A stretch of DNA of 22,822 nt from positions 1-22,822 of the IMG/VR virus record IMGVR_UViG_3300044640_001789; one strand, written 5' to 3'. Every line of letters starts with the position of its first letter. The first letter of the stretch is position 1. A program made the translations under genes and the position numbers. Shown here in pieces: positions 12,309 through 22,822 of the stretch. The stretch comes from a virus. A model generated the notes under the pieces. It had not been told where the DNA came from. It worked only from the letters and a program-made list of their open reading frames with translations, and did no database searches.

Positions 12309-13505
12309 TTAAATTTTAGCCCAACCCAGATGTTTTGTAACATCGCGGATTACTGATTCCCAATCGTCCATCTTTTCTTGTCTAAACAGCACTGCTGATG
12401 GATACCAAGGGGTTGAGTTGCGACCCAGTAACCAGCGCCAATCAACTGCATAATCATTTAACATTATCCAAGTTGGCCGCCCAAGAGATCCTGCCAAGTG
12501 TGCTGTTACAGTATCCACTGACAACACAATGTCTAGATGCATCATGAGCGCAGCCGTATCTGCAAACCCACTAACAGTGCCCGGAAAAACAGTTACTCCT
12601 AAATCTGTCAGAGTCTGATTTTCTTCGTCTGTGGCATCAGCTTGTAAATTTATCCAGTTATAGTCGGGATTGCGTTTGATGATATCAATCATTTTGTTGA
12701 ATGGCATACCCTTGTGGCCGTTCAGCCAAGAATCACGACGACCGCTCCAACCAAAGCCAACTCTCATTTTATTTTTAAATCCAAGACGTTTGGCCCACTG
12801 TGCAACCAGTGCAGAATCAGCGCTGATGTAACTGAGTTGTCTTGGCAAGTTGTCCAATGTGATACCAAGTATTCTGGGAATACTCATGATTGGAGTCCAG
12901 TAATCAAACGGTCCTAGGTCATCGGTGTAGGTACCAACTTTGGCAACTCCACCACCAGGCTGAAAAACTGATACTAGTCCTGCTGTTACCTGTAATAAAA
13001 CATTGGCACCAGCATCAATTAATTGTTGCACAAATCTCACAAACTGAACAGTGTCGCCATGCCCCTGCTCACCTATCACAAGAATAGTTTTGTCCTTAAG
13101 GGGTTCTCCTTGCCATCTGGGTTGCTCAAATTTAGGCAACGTTCCAGCCAAATGCTCGTATTCCCACCGAGACTCATATGAAGCCCAGCCATGCTTGTAG
13201 TCACCTAGCAACAACTGGCACACAGCTATGTTAAACTTTGCTGTTGTGTATCTAGGCTCAAGAGTTAGTGCTCTTTCTAAAAATGGTATTGCTCCAGCTG
13301 GGTCTCCTACTTCTCTCAGTACATTTCCGTAATTGTTAAATGCTGCCGCATTTGTTCTATCTTGAACAAATGCCTGTGCATAACATGCCAATGCTTGTTC
13401 GGGCAGACGCTGTTCACGGTGTTGGTTTCCTAGATCAATTAGTTCATTTGGTTTCATGTGCATATTTAAACTCGTAACTACACTGGCATTTATTATCTTG
13501 CTCAT
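12309..13505 (-). CDS. TPR-domain glycosyltransferase-like protein
   Basis: This 398-residue protein combines tetratricopeptide repeats with a GT-B type, heptosyltransferase/OGT-like glycosyltransferase domain. Residues of about 17-115 hold TPR helices (ALACYAQAFVQDRTNAAAFN, followed by NYGNVLREVGDPAGAIPFLE). The sugar-transfer part starts near residue 125 with FEQPRWQGEPL, then E146-Q-G-H-G-D151. Near the end are SVD331TVTAHLAGSLGRPTW and DWRWLLGRNSTPWYPS followed by LFRQ. These motifs are usual in TPR/GT9-like bacterial proteins and their phage relatives. Starts at ATG 13463 or 13457 (MHMKPNELID) are also possible and fit the candidate promoter better. It is the only minus-strand gene within the fibre region. 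Targets could be a fibre, a capsid protein or host surface sugar. Confidence 0.82.
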   Translation of the reverse strand: MSKIINASVVTSLNMHMKPNELIDLGNQHREQRLPEQALACYAQAFVQDRTNAAAFNNYGNVLREVGDPAGAIPFLERALTLEPRYTTAKFNIAVCQLLLGDYKHGWASYESRWEYEHLAGTLPKFEQPRWQGEPLKDKTILVIGEQGHGDTVQFVRFVQQLIDAGANVLLQVTAGLVSVFQPGGGVAKVGTYTDDLGPFDYWTPIMSIPRILGITLDNLPRQLSYISADSALVAQWAKRLGFKNKMRVGFGWSGRRDSWLNGHKGMPFNKMIDIIKRNPDYNWINLQADATDEENQTLTDLGVTVFPGTVSGFADTAALMMHLDIVLSVDTVTAHLAGSLGRPTWIMLNDYAVDWRWLLGRNSTPWYPSAVLFRQEKMDDWESVIRDVTKHLGWAKI

Positions 13506-13518
13506 AAATACTTGTCAA
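13492..13518 (-). promoter_or_regulatory. Possible sigma70-type promoter for the glycosyltransferase
   Basis: The minus strand carries a perfect TTGACA (13518-13513), a 15-base spacer and GATAAT (13497-13492), five of six matches to TATAAT. The spacer is shorter than the preferred 17. Transcription would begin inside the longest ORF, which favours initiation at 13463 or 13457. Such a promoter would allow expression without phage late factors. Confidence 0.38.
13503..13510 (+). promoter_or_regulatory. Late promoter-like motif upstream of the MGRPLK protein
   Basis: CATAAATA (then C) has one mismatch to TATAAATA and is identical to the motif at 16324. It overlaps the start codon of the minus-strand glycosyltransferase gene and would give an approximately 90-base leader for the gene at 13604. 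The leader holds a short AACACA/TGTGTT inverted repeat at 13517-13532. Confidence 0.52.
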
Positions 13519-13603
13519 CACAATAATGTGTTTTATGCTGATGATTAAACCCAGCGGCGTAGCGGCTAGAACCCGCATCGGACTTCTTTAAGGAGAAAAC
13601 AAA

Positions 13604-14290
13604 ATGGGACGTCCTCTAAAAATAAAAAAATCAACCACTGTTGACATTGGTTTTAACATGTGGTCTGAACTTACAAATCCAGTATTTCCAGCAACGTTTA
13701 ACACGGATCAGTTTGCTGGCGTTGTTGGCGGTGCCAAATCTGTAGCATCAACAGCATATCCAGTAGTCAAATGTGTGGCATTTATTGCCGGTGACAGTGA
13801 ATTTCGTGATGCTTTTATTCTGCGCCAGAAGGGCACTATCAAATACCTAGTGGCCGCAGTCAATGCTATCAACGACGAAGCCATGGTTGTTGGTAACACA
13901 TATTACATTGTTAGTCTTGGTACTACCAATTGGCAAGCCTCCGGTGCTGCATCCAATGCCAGCGTGGGTGACACGTTCACTTGCACGGCTGCCGGCAGTG
14001 GAACAGGAACAGTTTACCTAGTGGGAACTTGTGCTCTAGTCAACGACACAACTCCAGCTAGTGGTGAAATGAACATCACAATGAACGTGAACTCTGACAG
14101 TACAGAAATTGGGATCAGCAAATTAACCAATAAATTTGCACTTGACTACAGCGTTCCTCCAGTTCGTTATGCCATCAACTTCTTTACTGATGAAGGTACT
14201 GAAATAAAATCAGGCACACAAAACATTGGCAACTCAGCAACTCAACAAAATATATTGAGCCTGGGTCAGATATTACAGTATACATCTTAA
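13604..14290 (+). CDS. Virion structural protein with MGRPLKIKKST N-terminus
   Basis: This 228-residue protein begins MGRPLKIKKSTTVDIGF. A short basic start of the type MGRPL-x-K-K is one I know from structural proteins of cyanophages and other aquatic T4-like phages. Around residues 95-145 it has YYIVSLGTTNWQASGA, then VGDTFTCTAAGSGTGTVYLV, a glycine/threonine-rich beta motif widespread in phage tail and neck proteins. The C-terminal 60 residues (YSVPPVRYAINFFTDEGTEI) look beta-structured. No enzyme motif is present. TAAGGAG precedes the ATG with ideal spacing. A role as a fibre- or neck-associated structural protein is inferred from context; I cannot match it to a numbered T4 gene. Confidence 0.72.
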   Translation: MGRPLKIKKSTTVDIGFNMWSELTNPVFPATFNTDQFAGVVGGAKSVASTAYPVVKCVAFIAGDSEFRDAFILRQKGTIKYLVAAVNAINDEAMVVGNTYYIVSLGTTNWQASGAASNASVGDTFTCTAAGSGTGTVYLVGTCALVNDTTPASGEMNITMNVNSDSTEIGISKLTNKFALDYSVPPVRYAINFFTDEGTEIKSGTQNIGNSATQQNILSLGQILQYTS

Positions 14291-14304
14291 TATTTTCCAA
14301 TCCA

Positions 14305-14339
14305 AATCCTCCCTACTACATAATAGGGAGGATTTTTTT
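14305..14339 (+). terminator. Terminator hairpin that contains the downstream ribosome binding site
   Basis: AATCCTCCCTA (14305-14315) pairs perfectly with TAGGGAGGATT (14324-14334) around an eight-base loop, followed by five more T and then the ATG at 14340. GGGAGG (14326-14331) in the right arm is also the only Shine-Dalgarno for that ATG, spaced eight bases. One element therefore appears to end the upstream transcript and to mask the next ribosome binding site in read-through RNA. Confidence 0.87.
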
Positions 14340-14924
14340 ATGGCAGCATTTGTGTTGGGAAACGGAGTCAGTAGAGATTCCATAGAAGTTGACGAGTTAC
14401 TCAAAATTGGTCCAGTTTATGGCTGCAATGCACTGTACCGGACACACACGGTCACGGCCCTGGTAGCAACAGACACCCCTATTGCGCAGGCCATTCAAAA
14501 ATCAGGTTACAGTTTAACCAACAGATTTTACACTCGTCGTCCTGTAGCCGACACCGGCGCTCAAAAAGTCCCCAAAGAGTATTTTGGATTTAGTTCAGGG
14601 CCAATTGCCGCAGCAATTGCAGCCCAGGATGGTAATGTGCGAATCTACTTGCTGGGATTTGATATGGGTCCGTCAGAATCGGGGAAATTTAACAATATGT
14701 ACGCAGGTACAGAGTTCTACAAGGAATACGGGGCACACCCTACATTCACTGGCAACTGGATAAAACAGATAACTAAAGTTATTGCTGATCATCCTCGACA
14801 GCAATTTATACGTGTGCAAGGGCCCACAACGGCGTCTGTGCTTGAGCTATCAAAAATTGAAAATCTCACTCATCTAGCACTTGATACCTTTATCAAACGA
14901 ATAAATAATAAAAAGGATCTATAG
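14340..14924 (+). CDS. Conserved phage protein of unknown function (GNG-SR family)
   Basis: This 194-residue protein starts MAAFVLGNGVSRDSIEVDEL, with GPVYGCNALYR, then ALVATD, YFGFSSGPIAAAIAA, IYLLGFDM, FNNMYAGTEFYKEYG and NWIKQ. The opening beta-strand with GNG-x-SR, followed by YGCNALYR and L-V-A-x-D, suggests a Rossmann-like alpha/beta fold, as in proteins that bind nucleotides or sugar nucleotides. I have seen proteins of this pattern in aquatic phages and know no assigned function. It is not a fibre: it has normal globular composition, unlike its neighbours. The start codon immediately follows a terminator hairpin whose 3' arm supplies the Shine-Dalgarno. The stop at 14924 abuts the next ATG. 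It may serve glycan or fibre modification together with the glycosyltransferase, but this is only a guess from context. Confidence 0.68.
   Translation: MAAFVLGNGVSRDSIEVDELLKIGPVYGCNALYRTHTVTALVATDTPIAQAIQKSGYSLTNRFYTRRPVADTGAQKVPKEYFGFSSGPIAAAIAAQDGNVRIYLLGFDMGPSESGKFNNMYAGTEFYKEYGAHPTFTGNWIKQITKVIADHPRQQFIRVQGPTTASVLELSKIENLTHLALDTFIKRINNKKDL
14900..14907 (+). promoter_or_regulatory. Late promoter-like motif before the 216-residue fibre protein
   Basis: AATAAATA has one mismatch to TATAAATA, lies inside the end of the preceding gene, and ends 17 bases before the ATG at 14925. AAAAAGGA between them serves as ribosome binding site. Confidence 0.48.
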
Positions 14925-15575
14925 ATGGCTACTTACAAAAGAATTGATGGAGATTACACAATTGCCAGTGTTGACCCCTCGGCCGGCGACAATGTAAACA
15001 TCATCACCCACACAGTGACCGTTACTGGCAACTTGGAGGTGACAGGTAACGTTACATACATCAATGTAAACGACCTCACAGTTGATGATCCGTTCATTAC
15101 AGTGGCTGGTAACAATGCTGGTATAATTGCCAATGCAACATTCCAGCAACAGGGCCTGGTTACTCAAACATCATCAAATACATTTGCTGGCATACGGTTT
15201 GATAACGGTAACTTGGCCTGGCAAGTGAGCCCAAGTGTGGATGCTAATGGTGCCCCTATTGTAGCCTATGCCAACCTTACTACTGGGGCCACTACTACTC
15301 CCGGTGGTAGTAATACATTTGTGCAGTTCAACGATAGTGGCACATTTGGTGGCAACTCTGCTTTGGCATTTGACAAAGTCACAGGAAAATTAACAATTCA
15401 GGGCCATGTGGCGTTGGGTAACATTGGAACAACCCCATCAAGTGTGGCCAATTCAGTAGTGATGTACAACAAAGTAGTTGGTGCTGGCGGCACTGGGTTA
15501 TACGTGGTATCTAGTTCAGTTGACGATGAACTAGTGAGCAAGAGCAAAGCAATTGTGTTTGCTATAATATTTTAA
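14925..15575 (+). CDS. Fibre-like structural protein, 216 residues
   Basis: The ATG directly follows the stop of the preceding gene, with AAGGA upstream. Residues 30-65 (THTVTVTGNLEVTGNVTYIN, then VNDLTVDDPFITVAG) closely match a stretch of the large fibre at about 17401-17480 (GNLAVQGNLTYINVTDLRVVDPVIQ), so the two share a module. The middle part contains SNTFAGIRFDNGNLAWQVSP and TTPGGSNTFVQFNDSG followed by FGGNSALAFD, phrases common in T4-like fibre and collar proteins. The C-terminal 40 residues (GTGLYVVSSSVDDELVSKSK, then AIVFAIIF) end in a hydrophobic strand. It is probably a short fibre or an adaptor at the base of the longer fibre. The exact role is not visible. Confidence 0.72.
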   Translation: MATYKRIDGDYTIASVDPSAGDNVNIITHTVTVTGNLEVTGNVTYINVNDLTVDDPFITVAGNNAGIIANATFQQQGLVTQTSSNTFAGIRFDNGNLAWQVSPSVDANGAPIVAYANLTTGATTTPGGSNTFVQFNDSGTFGGNSALAFDKVTGKLTIQGHVALGNIGTTPSSVANSVVMYNKVVGAGGTGLYVVSSSVDDELVSKSKAIVFAIIF

Positions 15576-19824: not shown

Positions 19825-19856
19825 AATAGGATCATTTGAAATGATCCTATTTTTTT
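19825..19856 (+). terminator. Strong intrinsic terminator after the large fibre gene
   Basis: AATAGGATCA (19825-19834) pairs perfectly with TGATCCTATT (19842-19851) around TTTGAAA, whose ends can pair further. Five more T follow the stem. Confidence 0.92.
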
Positions 19857-19857
19857 G

Positions 19858-19865
19858 ACTAAATA
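19858..19865 (+). promoter_or_regulatory. Late promoter-like motif before the second fibre gene
   Basis: ACTAAATA (then C) directly follows the terminator T-run and ends 21 bases before the ATG at 19887. It keeps the TAAATAC core seen at 11682 and 16326. The arrangement terminator then promoter repeats that at 11651-11687. Confidence 0.5.
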
Positions 19866-19886
19866 CTCCATTAGAATGGTGAATAC

Positions 19887-22822
19887 ATGGCATTAACACG
19901 GATCGCAGCACAACAGATTTCGAACCTTGACTACAAGCAAGCAGTTCGTGTGATCACGATATCAAATGTGACATTATCAGGTGGTGCTCCCAGCAGTGTC
20001 GACGGGGTAACGCTGGTTCTTAACGATCGTGTTCTAGTGGCAGGCCAGAGTACTGGAAGCCAAAACGGTTTATATTATGTAACCACATTAGGAACTGGAT
20101 CCAACGGTACCTGGCAACGCACTGGCGATGCTGATACCAATGGTGAGATTGAGGCTGGCATGATTGTAATGGTCACTGAAGGCTCAGTCAACGCTGACAC
20201 ACAATGGAAGTTAATAACAAATAATCCAATTGTAATTGGAACCACGGCATTGGTATTTGAAAAAAATGCTGCATTTGGTTATAGCAATATCTTTGCAAAC
20301 GGTACAGCAGTGTTGGCCACATCAGTTGGCGATACACTTACCCTGACTGCTGGTAATAACATTTCTATTGTGGGAAATAACGGAACTAGAACTGTTACCA
20401 TTGGAGTTACTGGAGTAAGTTTAAATTCCATCAGCAACGGCACTAGCAACGTTAATGTAGTAAGCTCTGGCGGCAACGTGACTGTTGGTGTGGGTGGTAC
20501 ATCAAATATAGCAGTATTTATCACCAGCGGCCTGGACGTCACGGGTAGAGTTAGTGTAACAGGCAACATAACCAGTAGTAATTTAGTAATCAGCAATGCT
20601 GATGCCAGCATTGGTTCTGTAGCTACCACAGCTGGTTGGTACTACGAGACCAGCTTTAGCGTTGCCTCAGAGGATTCAGAACCAAGAGGTGTGTTTTTTA
20701 AACCCGATGGCACCAGGATGTATGTGGTGGGAAACTCCGGCAATGATATCCTACAGTATGATCTAGGTACCGCCTGGGATGTATCAACAGCTACGTATAG
20801 TAATGCTTTTGTAGTGTCCAGTCAAGGCACAAGCCCCTATGATGTGCATTTCAAGAGTGATGGCACTGTTATGTATGTGTTGGATGGTTCCAACGACGAC
20901 ATAGATCAATACACCTTATCATCAGCTTGGGACATAGGATCAGCTAGTTTTGCCAGCATTCAGTTTAGTCTAAGTAGTCAAGAATCTGCACCCACTGGTT
21001 TTTGGTTCCGCCCTGATGGTACCCAACTGTTTGTAACAGGCTCCACTGGTGATGATGTCAATGAATACAATCTTGGCACTGCATGGAATGTAAGCACAGC
21101 CAGTTTTGTTCAGGTATCATCGTCACTGGCTGCTTATGAAACCGTGCCGGAAGGTTTGGCCTTTTCCAGCGATGGCACCAAGATGTGGATTGTGGGATCC
21201 ACTTACAATCGTATCACGCAGTTTGATCTGTCTACACCCTGGAATGTCAGCACCCTGTCTTACAACAGTCAATTGCCCATATACGGATCCGGACCATATG
21301 CTATTGGTGGGGCTAGTGGACTCTATGTGAATGAATCGGCAGGTGTGGCTTATGTGTCAGACTATGATAACGATCGCGTATTCCAGTATGCCACAGACAC
21401 CCCAACTGGGCAGTTTTACGGTCCCCAGTGGACTACTGAAACAGATTTTAATGTGGGCAATAATCTTTCGGTCAACAATAACTTTAATGCTAGCGGATCC
21501 ACAAGACTCGTGGGCGCTGTGACCGCAGCTACATCCATTAGTTCTCCAAATCATGCCGCTACTTCAAGTAGTGGCACCACTTCATTGATCACAGGCACTA
21601 CCTCTGGTACAATAAACTTTGCCACAGGTATTACCACTGGTACTTTGAATCAGATGACAGCTCAGACCACGGGAGTCTACACGCTGGGCGGCACAGGTGC
21701 CACTGGTGCCATCAACATTGGACGTAGTACAGCCAATCAAAGTATTGTTATTGGCAACGGTGTTACTGCTTCAGGTAGTGTCAAGACCATCAACATTGGT
21801 ACTCTGGGAGCATCGGGATCCAACACCGATGTCACTGTTGGATCTGCTACTTCTGGTGCTGTAACTAATATTACTCTTTATGGCAATACTGCCGCGGGTA
21901 ACCTTTCTACCACAGGGCTCATATCAGCAACCGGCAACATCAGTGGCGGTAATTTATCAGGCACTAGTATCGTGGGTACGTTGACCACAGCCGCACAAAC
22001 CAACATTACATCAGTGGGCACATTGGGTAGTTTGGCTGTAACTGGTAACATCACAAGTGGCAATTTATCAGGCACTAGTATCGTAGGCACACTGACCACA
22101 GCGGCACAGACAAATATCACTTCGGTGGGTACATTGGGATCGTTATCGGTGACCGGAAACGTAACATCGGGTAACGTAAGCGGAACACGAGTAAGTGGTA
22201 CAAACGGTGACTTTACTAATGTATCTGGAAACGGCTCTGCACTAACAGCACTGAATGCAAGTAACATTTCAACTGGAACATTGGCACAAGCACGTTTGGC
22301 CAATGCCACAGTGACATTGGGTAGTACAGCACTCACACTTGGATCCACAGTTACGACAGTTGCTGGATTGACCAGTGTGACATCAACTACATTTGTAGGT
22401 GCATTGACTGGCGCAGCCACCACAGCAGCCACTGTGACCACTGCGGCACAACCTAATATTACGTCAGTTGGTACATTAACTGGCCTGACACTAAGTGGTA
22501 CATTAACTGGCACAACTGTCAATGCAGCCACAATTGGTAACGCAGGGGCTGCCTTTACTGGTGCAAGTATCTCAGCGGCCACAATTGGTAACTCAGGAGC
22601 ATTGATAACCGGTACACTACAAACTGCCGCACAAACAAATATTACTTCGGTGGGTACTTTAGGTAGTTTAAGTGTAACCGGCAACATCACAGGTGGCAAT
22701 ATCTTAGGTGGTGCCAATGTCAATGCCACAACTCACACAGGAACCACAGTTTCGGTAACTGGCAACATCACAGGTGGTAACATACTCGGTGGTGCCAATG
22801 TCAATGCCACAACTCACACAGG
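19887..22822 (+). CDS. Second tail fibre with N-terminal adaptor domain and beta-propeller insert (partial)
   Basis: The frame is open from ATG 19887 through the right edge (978 codons, no stop). Residues 1-130 (LDYKQAVRVITISNVTLSGG, then DGVTLVLNDRVLVAGQ, NGLYYVTT, WQRTGDADT) form a domain common at the N-terminus of phage fibre proteins, probably an attachment region. Next come SNGTSNVNVVSSGGNVTVGV and GGTSNIAVF, shared with the first fibre. Nucleotides 20679-21420 encode four clear repeats of about 52 residues and a weaker fifth, each with P-x-G-x-x-F-x-x-DGTxMYV, then I-x-QY-x-L-x-x-x-WD/N-V-S-T-A-x. That is a YVTN/NHL-like beta-propeller pattern. The rest is a Gly/Thr/Ser/Asn-rich shaft with four AAQ(T/P)NITSVGTL motifs. 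The ribosome binding site is weak (a GGTG nearby). Confidence 0.85.
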   Translation, partial: MALTRIAAQQISNLDYKQAVRVITISNVTLSGGAPSSVDGVTLVLNDRVLVAGQSTGSQNGLYYVTTLGTGSNGTWQRTGDADTNGEIEAGMIVMVTEGSVNADTQWKLITNNPIVIGTTALVFEKNAAFGYSNIFANGTAVLATSVGDTLTLTAGNNISIVGNNGTRTVTIGVTGVSLNSISNGTSNVNVVSSGGNVTVGVGGTSNIAVFITSGLDVTGRVSVTGNITSSNLVISNADASIGSVATTAGWYYETSFSVASEDSEPRGVFFKPDGTRMYVVGNSGNDILQYDLGTAWDVSTATYSNAFVVSSQGTSPYDVHFKSDGTVMYVLDGSNDDIDQYTLSSAWDIGSASFASIQFSLSSQESAPTGFWFRPDGTQLFVTGSTGDDVNEYNLGTAWNVSTASFVQVSSSLAAYETVPEGLAFSSDGTKMWIVGSTYNRITQFDLSTPWNVSTLSYNSQLPIYGSGPYAIGGASGLYVNESAGVAYVSDYDNDRVFQYATDTPTGQFYGPQWTTETDFNVGNNLSVNNNFNASGSTRLVGAVTAATSISSPNHAATSSSGTTSLITGTTSGTINFATGITTGTLNQMTAQTTGVYTLGGTGATGAINIGRSTANQSIVIGNGVTASGSVKTINIGTLGASGSNTDVTVGSATSGAVTNITLYGNTAAGNLSTTGLISATGNISGGNLSGTSIVGTLTTAAQTNITSVGTLGSLAVTGNITSGNLSGTSIVGTLTTAAQTNITSVGTLGSLSVTGNVTSGNVSGTRVSGTNGDFTNVSGNGSALTALNASNISTGTLAQARLANATVTLGSTALTLGSTVTTVAGLTSVTSTTFVGALTGAATTAATVTTAAQPNITSVGTLTGLTLSGTLTGTTVNAATIGNAGAAFTGASISAATIGNSGALITGTLQTAAQTNITSVGTLGSLSVTGNITGGNILGGANVNATTHTGTTVSVTGNITGGNILGGANVNATTHT
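21957..22178 (+). repeat. Two 111-bp repeats in the second fibre shaft
   Basis: Units at 21957-22067 and 22068-22178 (37 residues each) encode SGTSIVGTLTTAAQ, then TNITSVGTLGSL, then a VTGN segment. The second unit degenerates near its end. Less complete copies of the AAQ-x-NITSVGTL core recur near 22440 and 22620. The motif is widespread in aquatic virus fibres. Confidence 0.82.
22674..22822 (+). repeat. 81-bp direct repeat running off the right edge
   Basis: A unit of 81 bases (27 residues: VTGNITGGNILGGANVNATT, then HTGTTVS) begins at 22674. A second copy begins at 22755 and is cut by the window end after 68 bases. The last 38 visible bases of both copies are identical, and earlier differences are silent. 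Confidence 0.88.

Follow-up and report, generated by a model that had tools for sequence, protein, structure and literature searches.

Hairpin in front of the gene at 14340

How can a gene be expressed when its only Shine-Dalgarno (SD) sequence is paired within a hairpin that also has the make-up of a transcription terminator? This question is raised by the segment preceding the ATG at 14340 in a 22.8-kb virus record with T4-like genes (the whole stretch of 22,822 nucleotides analyzed is hereafter called the window), of which the capsid protein shares 64-67% identity with its counterparts in large T4-like phages, including Vibrio phage 2.275.O, PA5oct and CBB (best 15 matches). Masking of the ribosome-binding site (RBS) of the gene e type has mostly been described for a small number of genes in T4 and closely related phages; the mechanism for T4 gene e has been reviewed, and soc, 49 and I-TevI are also named (PMC3014915, part of the text). 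We consider it probable that the window carries a late gene masked in the manner of gene e and merged with an intrinsic terminator, and that late transcripts start inside the 3′ arm of the hairpin and thereby escape both.

The hairpin, on the plus strand, is composed of the left arm AAATCCTCCCTA (14304-14315), which pairs with the SD as judged from folding and covariation, an 8-nt loop CTACATAA (14316-14323), and the right arm TAGGGAGGATTT (14324-14335), identified by folding, which contains the SD sequence GGGAGGA (14326-14332). The loop includes TACATA (14317-14322), herewith proposed as the core of a late promoter of the class TANNTA. A run of seven T (14333-14339), of which TTTT lies between the right arm and the ATG, would serve both as the tail of an intrinsic terminator and as the spacer between SD and ATG. 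The earlier note on this DNA described an 11-pair stem with the T-run ending one base before the ATG; the stem is indeed perfect and the T-run is present, but the pairs are 12 in number (14304-14315 with 14324-14335) and the T-run touches the ATG at 14340. Its reading of GGGAGG in the 3′ arm as the sole SD agrees with the sequence, in which GGGAGGA is the only SD-like element within reach of this ATG. The fold energy is -17.8 kcal/mol (z -4.7), a value equalled by none of 200 shuffled sequences (RNA fold). The window hairpin has an SD held in a stable stem next to the ATG, as in the gene e type, and also a GC-rich stem followed by a T-run, as in intrinsic terminators. In RNA thermometers of the fourU type, UUUU faces the SD in a weak pairing; in the window the SD faces TCCTCCC and all the pairs are Watson-Crick.

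A scan of the window yielded 19 terminator-like sites, this hairpin included, against 16.2 expected in shuffled sequences, so that the terminator scan alone would not single it out; a sigma-70 promoter scan (37 found, 33.1 expected) was uninformative. What singles out the hairpin, at the level of sequence comparison, is conservation among homologues, covariation and the covariance model R1 (see below). In Rfam, freshwater-2 RNA (13516-13606) alone reached its gathering score in the window; the matches overlapping the hairpin were all below theirs. No description of a hairpin serving as terminator, mask and promoter was found in the literature searched. Within the same window, a separate terminator (about 19825-19856), a promoter CTAAATAC (19859-19866) and a start codon (19887) stand side by side on the plus strand (19825-19887), whereas the corresponding elements overlap at 14304-14340.

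Conservation and covariation of the hairpin among homologues

Protein searches gave 55 relatives at first, and at least 595 with the 30-sequence alignment A2, of which 80 were kept. A total of 134 loci were given to the upstream scan (L039, with its match at the locus edge, and L094 were left out); three of these (L088-L090) carried no start, and the remaining 131 gave 93 distinct upstream sequences. Since pattern scans recover loci but fix the loop, all loop statistics were taken from the loci found by protein; pattern matches with neither hairpin nor family gene (e.g. L095, L107, L115 and L130) were taken as chance. Within this close family, 91 of the 93 sequences passed the hairpin scan, and TANNTA was present in all 91 loops. 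As to the two failures, L264 carries the element with one mismatch, and in L227 the start was set too far downstream.

The earlier note had suggested comparing the stem across related genomes for compensatory changes. Among 37 distinct elements with a 7-base loop, pairing was found in 99.7% of cells, and 38 cells showed double changes against 13.4 in shuffles (0 of 500 reached 38) and at most 9 when the arms were slid against each other. On the tree of 93 proteins, at least 26 changes from one Watson-Crick pair to another were counted at five varying pairs (8+5+7+5+1), and loss of the left arm with retention of the SD, which would have spoken against the earlier note, was not seen. The lack of A.C mismatches in 35 arms is a biased count, because the stem finder accepts G.T but not A.C; L264, with its mismatch, dropped out of the scan. 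Since 91 of 93 upstream sequences keep the hairpin, with compensatory changes along the tree, the left arm is maintained.

The covariance model R1, built from alignment A1 which contains the window and elements of some of the tested phages, matched the window and five of six related contigs strongly and once each (E ≤ 1.1e-7), and the sixth more weakly (E 0.0035); beyond these it gave two echoes on the opposite strand and a pair of matches at E 0.12 and 0.52. R1 had no match in HTVC008M, T4, the L088 record or the L289 genome (for L289, 150 of 1477 candidates were scored), and no such hairpin was found upstream of the distant homologues L088-L090. The elements are related by descent, a reservation with regard to the masked late gene model.

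The T-run is conserved as well, its length being 6-8 in 87 of 91 homologues. Of 143 family starts (a set including loci fetched by pattern), 138 have a run of T5 or more no farther than 12 nt from the ATG, against only 13 of 686 others. The proposal of the earlier note that terminator and RBS mask reside in one hairpin is supported in both parts, the left arm being kept by compensatory change and the T-run being kept in its place. One may ask if the element is a plain terminator of the upstream gene that overlaps the SD by chance, the masking having no regulatory role. The conserved T-run, the presence of intrinsic terminators between late genes elsewhere in the same phage and the compactness of these genomes would all fit such an explanation, but a TANNTA loop at a fixed distance is unneeded for termination, and RBS-masking hairpins are rare: each of six contigs measuring 114-340 kb has only one or two, with the 14340-type gene among them in all six. 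We therefore judge a plain terminator to be unlikely.

Late promoters and the loop hexamer

The late promoter of T4 (consensus TATAAATA) spans -13 to -6, i.e. with a spacing of 6, and that of Aeh1 is CTAAATA (PMC1524935, part of the text). In the loci analyzed here, TAAATA is the most enriched hexamer 5′ of genes; with the family itself excluded, it was found at 44 of 133 starts against 1.9 expected, 26 of them at -23 and 7 at -24. All 14 large related contigs, which are relatives of the window phage, encode a gp55-like late sigma (phrog_234). The gene next to the 14340 gene (14925-15575) has its TAAATA late promoter at 14902-14907 (plus strand), 23 nt 5′ of its ATG and inside the end of the 14340 gene. 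Of 41 distinct upstream sequences of head-tail adaptor genes, 40 have TAAATA between -23 and -27 (77 of 80 loci were used, L387, L395 and L422 being too close to the locus end; six had no start). In many of these genes (L367-L444), TAAATA is followed by a small leader hairpin, for example GGGGGAACGGAGTTCCCCC, which contains the SD and abuts the ATG. TAAATA also peaks 10-13 nt 5′ of start codons in six contigs (L297-L363), a place unlike that of the late promoter.

The gene upstream of the hairpin carries its own late promoter and leader (13505-13606, plus strand), recognized from Rfam RF02980 and the promoter spacing: TAAATA at 13505-13510 and a freshwater-2 RNA at 13516-13606. This RNA is present in 13 of 14 related loci. 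In all 14 freshwater-2 leaders the last A of TAAATA lies 3-10 nt before the start of the RNA model, and in six, the window included, exactly 6 nt before it. The RNA begins where TAAATA would start transcription, and resembles a late-gene leader of T4-like phages. It is similar to the hairpin at 14304-14335 in being a cis-acting leader within the same gene block, belonging to the next gene upstream, but differs from it in both structure and gene.

In the 93 upstream sequences, the loop hexamer was TACATA in 58, TAAGTA in 12, TAACTA in 8, TAAATA in 7, TAATTA in 4 and TATATA in 2, with 2 unscored; an initial observation from 29 distinct elements that TAAATA never occurs in the loop was overturned by this wider set. 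The middle two bases differ from AA in 84 of 91 loops, and C or A stands before the TA..TA core in 82 of 91. The two TA of the loop in the main class do not pair with each other in the stem register, and their conservation is thus a sequence signal. The hexamer starts 20-23 nt 5′ of the ATG in 87 of 91 elements, so that TANNTA, as read from the sequences, is positioned close to where the neighboring genes have their TAAATA late promoters (-23/-24). The remark in the earlier note that no clear late promoter lies inside the hairpin is not supported: the loop contains TACATA, and TANNTA occurs in the loop of all 91 scanned elements. The loop of the window, CTACATA, is one base off the TAAATA core and does not agree with the late promoter consensus TATAAATA or NTAAATA. 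Moreover, none of the 133 other starts in these loci carries TACATA, which is therefore not a usual promoter of these phages. In its TA..TA core, its position 5′ of the ATG and the presence of gp55 in relatives, the element resembles T4-type late promoters including CTAAATA of Aeh1; it is unlike them in that the middle two bases are mostly not AA. Because most loops carry TACATA and not TAAATA, promoter activity of the hexamer is a point that we can only infer.

A different role of the loop has to be considered, namely a translational operator, in which a phage RNA-binding protein recognizes the loop and controls translation of the read-through RNA, the loop then being no promoter. Such operators have precedents in T4, for instance gp43 with its own hairpin (PMC3014915, part of the text). 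The strong conservation of the loop, the restriction of the element to one gene family and the mostly non-consensus hexamer agree with this model. However, the loop varies in size from 4 to 14 nt and the place of the hexamer within it from -3 to +4 (91 elements), yet the distance to the T-run and ATG is nearly fixed: the hexamer lies 15 nt from the T-run in 76 of 91 (sd 0.89), against sd 1.27 and 1.17 for its place in the loop. In addition, the hexamer was altered at least 15 times on the protein tree, the middle bases changing with TA..TA retained, and its position is that of the late promoters of neighboring genes. An operator is thus a minor candidate with a low probability. The prevalence of TACATA could mean that the promoter has been kept weak by design; otherwise the loop would have some other function, for which recognition by an RNA-binding protein is the leading alternative. 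The element also raises the question of why a non-consensus late promoter is retained at a single gene when the neighboring genes have TAAATA.

Proposed mode of expression of the 14340 gene

Under the masked late gene model that we prefer, transcripts from the upstream gene would run into the intrinsic terminator, with its T-run ending at the ATG of the next gene. Any read-through RNA would fold into the same hairpin, and the pairing of its sole SD with the left arm would block translation. The loop would carry a variant T4-type late promoter, TACATA of the class TANNTA, from which the phage late RNA polymerase, carrying the gp55 sigma, would initiate midway along the 3′ arm, at about 14328, with +1 placed six bases beyond the final A of the hexamer. 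The late leader predicted from the T4 spacing (PMC1524935, part of the text) is the 12-nt GAGGATTTTTTT (14328-14339, plus strand). The SD is unpaired in the fold of 14328-14360, and the SD core is present in 90 of 91 predicted late leaders. Because such a leader of about 12 nt has an open SD and no left arm, neither terminator nor mask should form in the late RNA. The 14340 gene would be insulated from upstream transcription and expressed from its own late start alone, as is T4 gene e.

The comparison with T4 gene e, drawn already in the earlier note, proved apt. The T4 sequence folds as AATACCTTCT-ATAAATACTT-AGGAGGTATT-ATG with the promoter in the loop of the RBS-masking hairpin, and the late RNA of gene e is devoid of the left arm (PMC3014915, part of the text). 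In both hairpins the 3′ arm holds the SD immediately 5′ of the ATG. TAAATA occurs in the loop of 7 of 93 homologues. They differ in the gene, in the promoter (the consensus TATAAATA in T4, mostly TACATA here) and in the T-run, which is present here while none follows the gene e hairpin in T4's own sequence; besides, R1 does not match T4. What is new relative to the known gene e case is a terminator merged into gene e-type masking and kept across many uncultured phages.

The same note held that the read-through RNA is the messenger, to be translated with the aid of a helper, a moving ribosome or temperature. A stable stem over the sole SD would be in accord with this, but we regard it as very improbable. 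In all 23 loci compared, the upstream gene has its stop codon 47-58 nt 5′ of the ATG, and in the window this codon is 13 nt short of the left arm, so that a moving ribosome would terminate before the stem. A perfect, GC-rich stem of -17.8 kcal/mol does not look like a thermosensor, and a start in the loop is available that avoids the problem, making such assistance unnecessary.

Returning to the late start within the hairpin, we lean, with less assurance than for the masked late gene model, toward a fuller picture in which a large group of uncultured T4-like phages carries a 36-40 bp module before a gene of glycosyltransferase fold, where terminator, translational lock and deliberately weak late promoter share bases and the start site alone decides between locked and open RNA. 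Across this group, masking is preserved through compensatory changes, and its merger with a terminator makes for a very compact gene boundary. With this element one can examine directly how two transcription programmes are kept apart by a start within a hairpin, and it provides a short insulated part combining promoter and RBS.

Other RBS-masking hairpins

RBS-masking hairpins were detected at 11 of 686 other starts. TAAATA was located at -18 to -30 in 9 of 11 masking hairpins (693 starts; Fisher p 1e-4), while shuffles gave a mean of 0.49 and a maximum of 2 in 300 rounds. Of these nine masked late starts, six are those of the MTQQII fibre gene, a single family with a different stem. In this tail-fibre-like gene (L120, L193, L124, L176, L200, L098, L191 and others), GGTAAATA lies between the arms, and the 3′ arm contains the SD. 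Its 32 distinct starts include 29 with TAAATA in range, and 23 of these 29 hairpins have z < -2 (mean -3.3). For comparison, z < -2 was observed for 31 of 189 other late starts (mean -0.6) and for 91 of 91 of the 14340 family. Judged from these folds, the MTQQII gene is a second masked late gene, without a T-run. A hairpin at the head-tail adaptor gene of L171 was rejected as a second conserved case, since it is confined to one lineage. On contig G003 (about 236420-236900, L325), a gene starting MPWIENVAAADIPLRF is preceded by a 15-pair RBS-masking hairpin with a T-run and the loop CTATAATA.

The controlled gene and its neighbors

The controlled gene (14340-14924, plus strand) encodes a protein of 194 residues, assigned to phrog_30607, with a predicted fold like that of Maf and the CstII sialyltransferase. 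Profile searches gave phrog_30607 and weak matches to sialyltransferases. The AlphaFold model (pLDDT 89.6) was aligned by VIA-align with the Maf glycosyltransferase 5mu5 (Z 11.9, rmsd 4.0, 169 aligned) and CstII 1ro7 (Z 10.5, rmsd 3.7, 169 aligned); a Foldseek search of the model against PDB gave nothing at E ≤ 0.001. The product is likely to have a glycosyltransferase fold according to this model, with a putative enzyme activity.

The gene order around the hairpin is conserved. The upstream gene (13604-14290, plus strand), starting MGRPLKIKK in the window, is co-directional in all 23 loci and mostly has a similar start; its transcripts would meet the terminator. The downstream gene is present in 20 of 23 loci, mostly of the MATYKR or MSTYKR type. 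A TPR-repeat protein is encoded on the minus strand (12309-13505), opposite in direction within the late block, and its C-terminal part is similar to phrog_36377.
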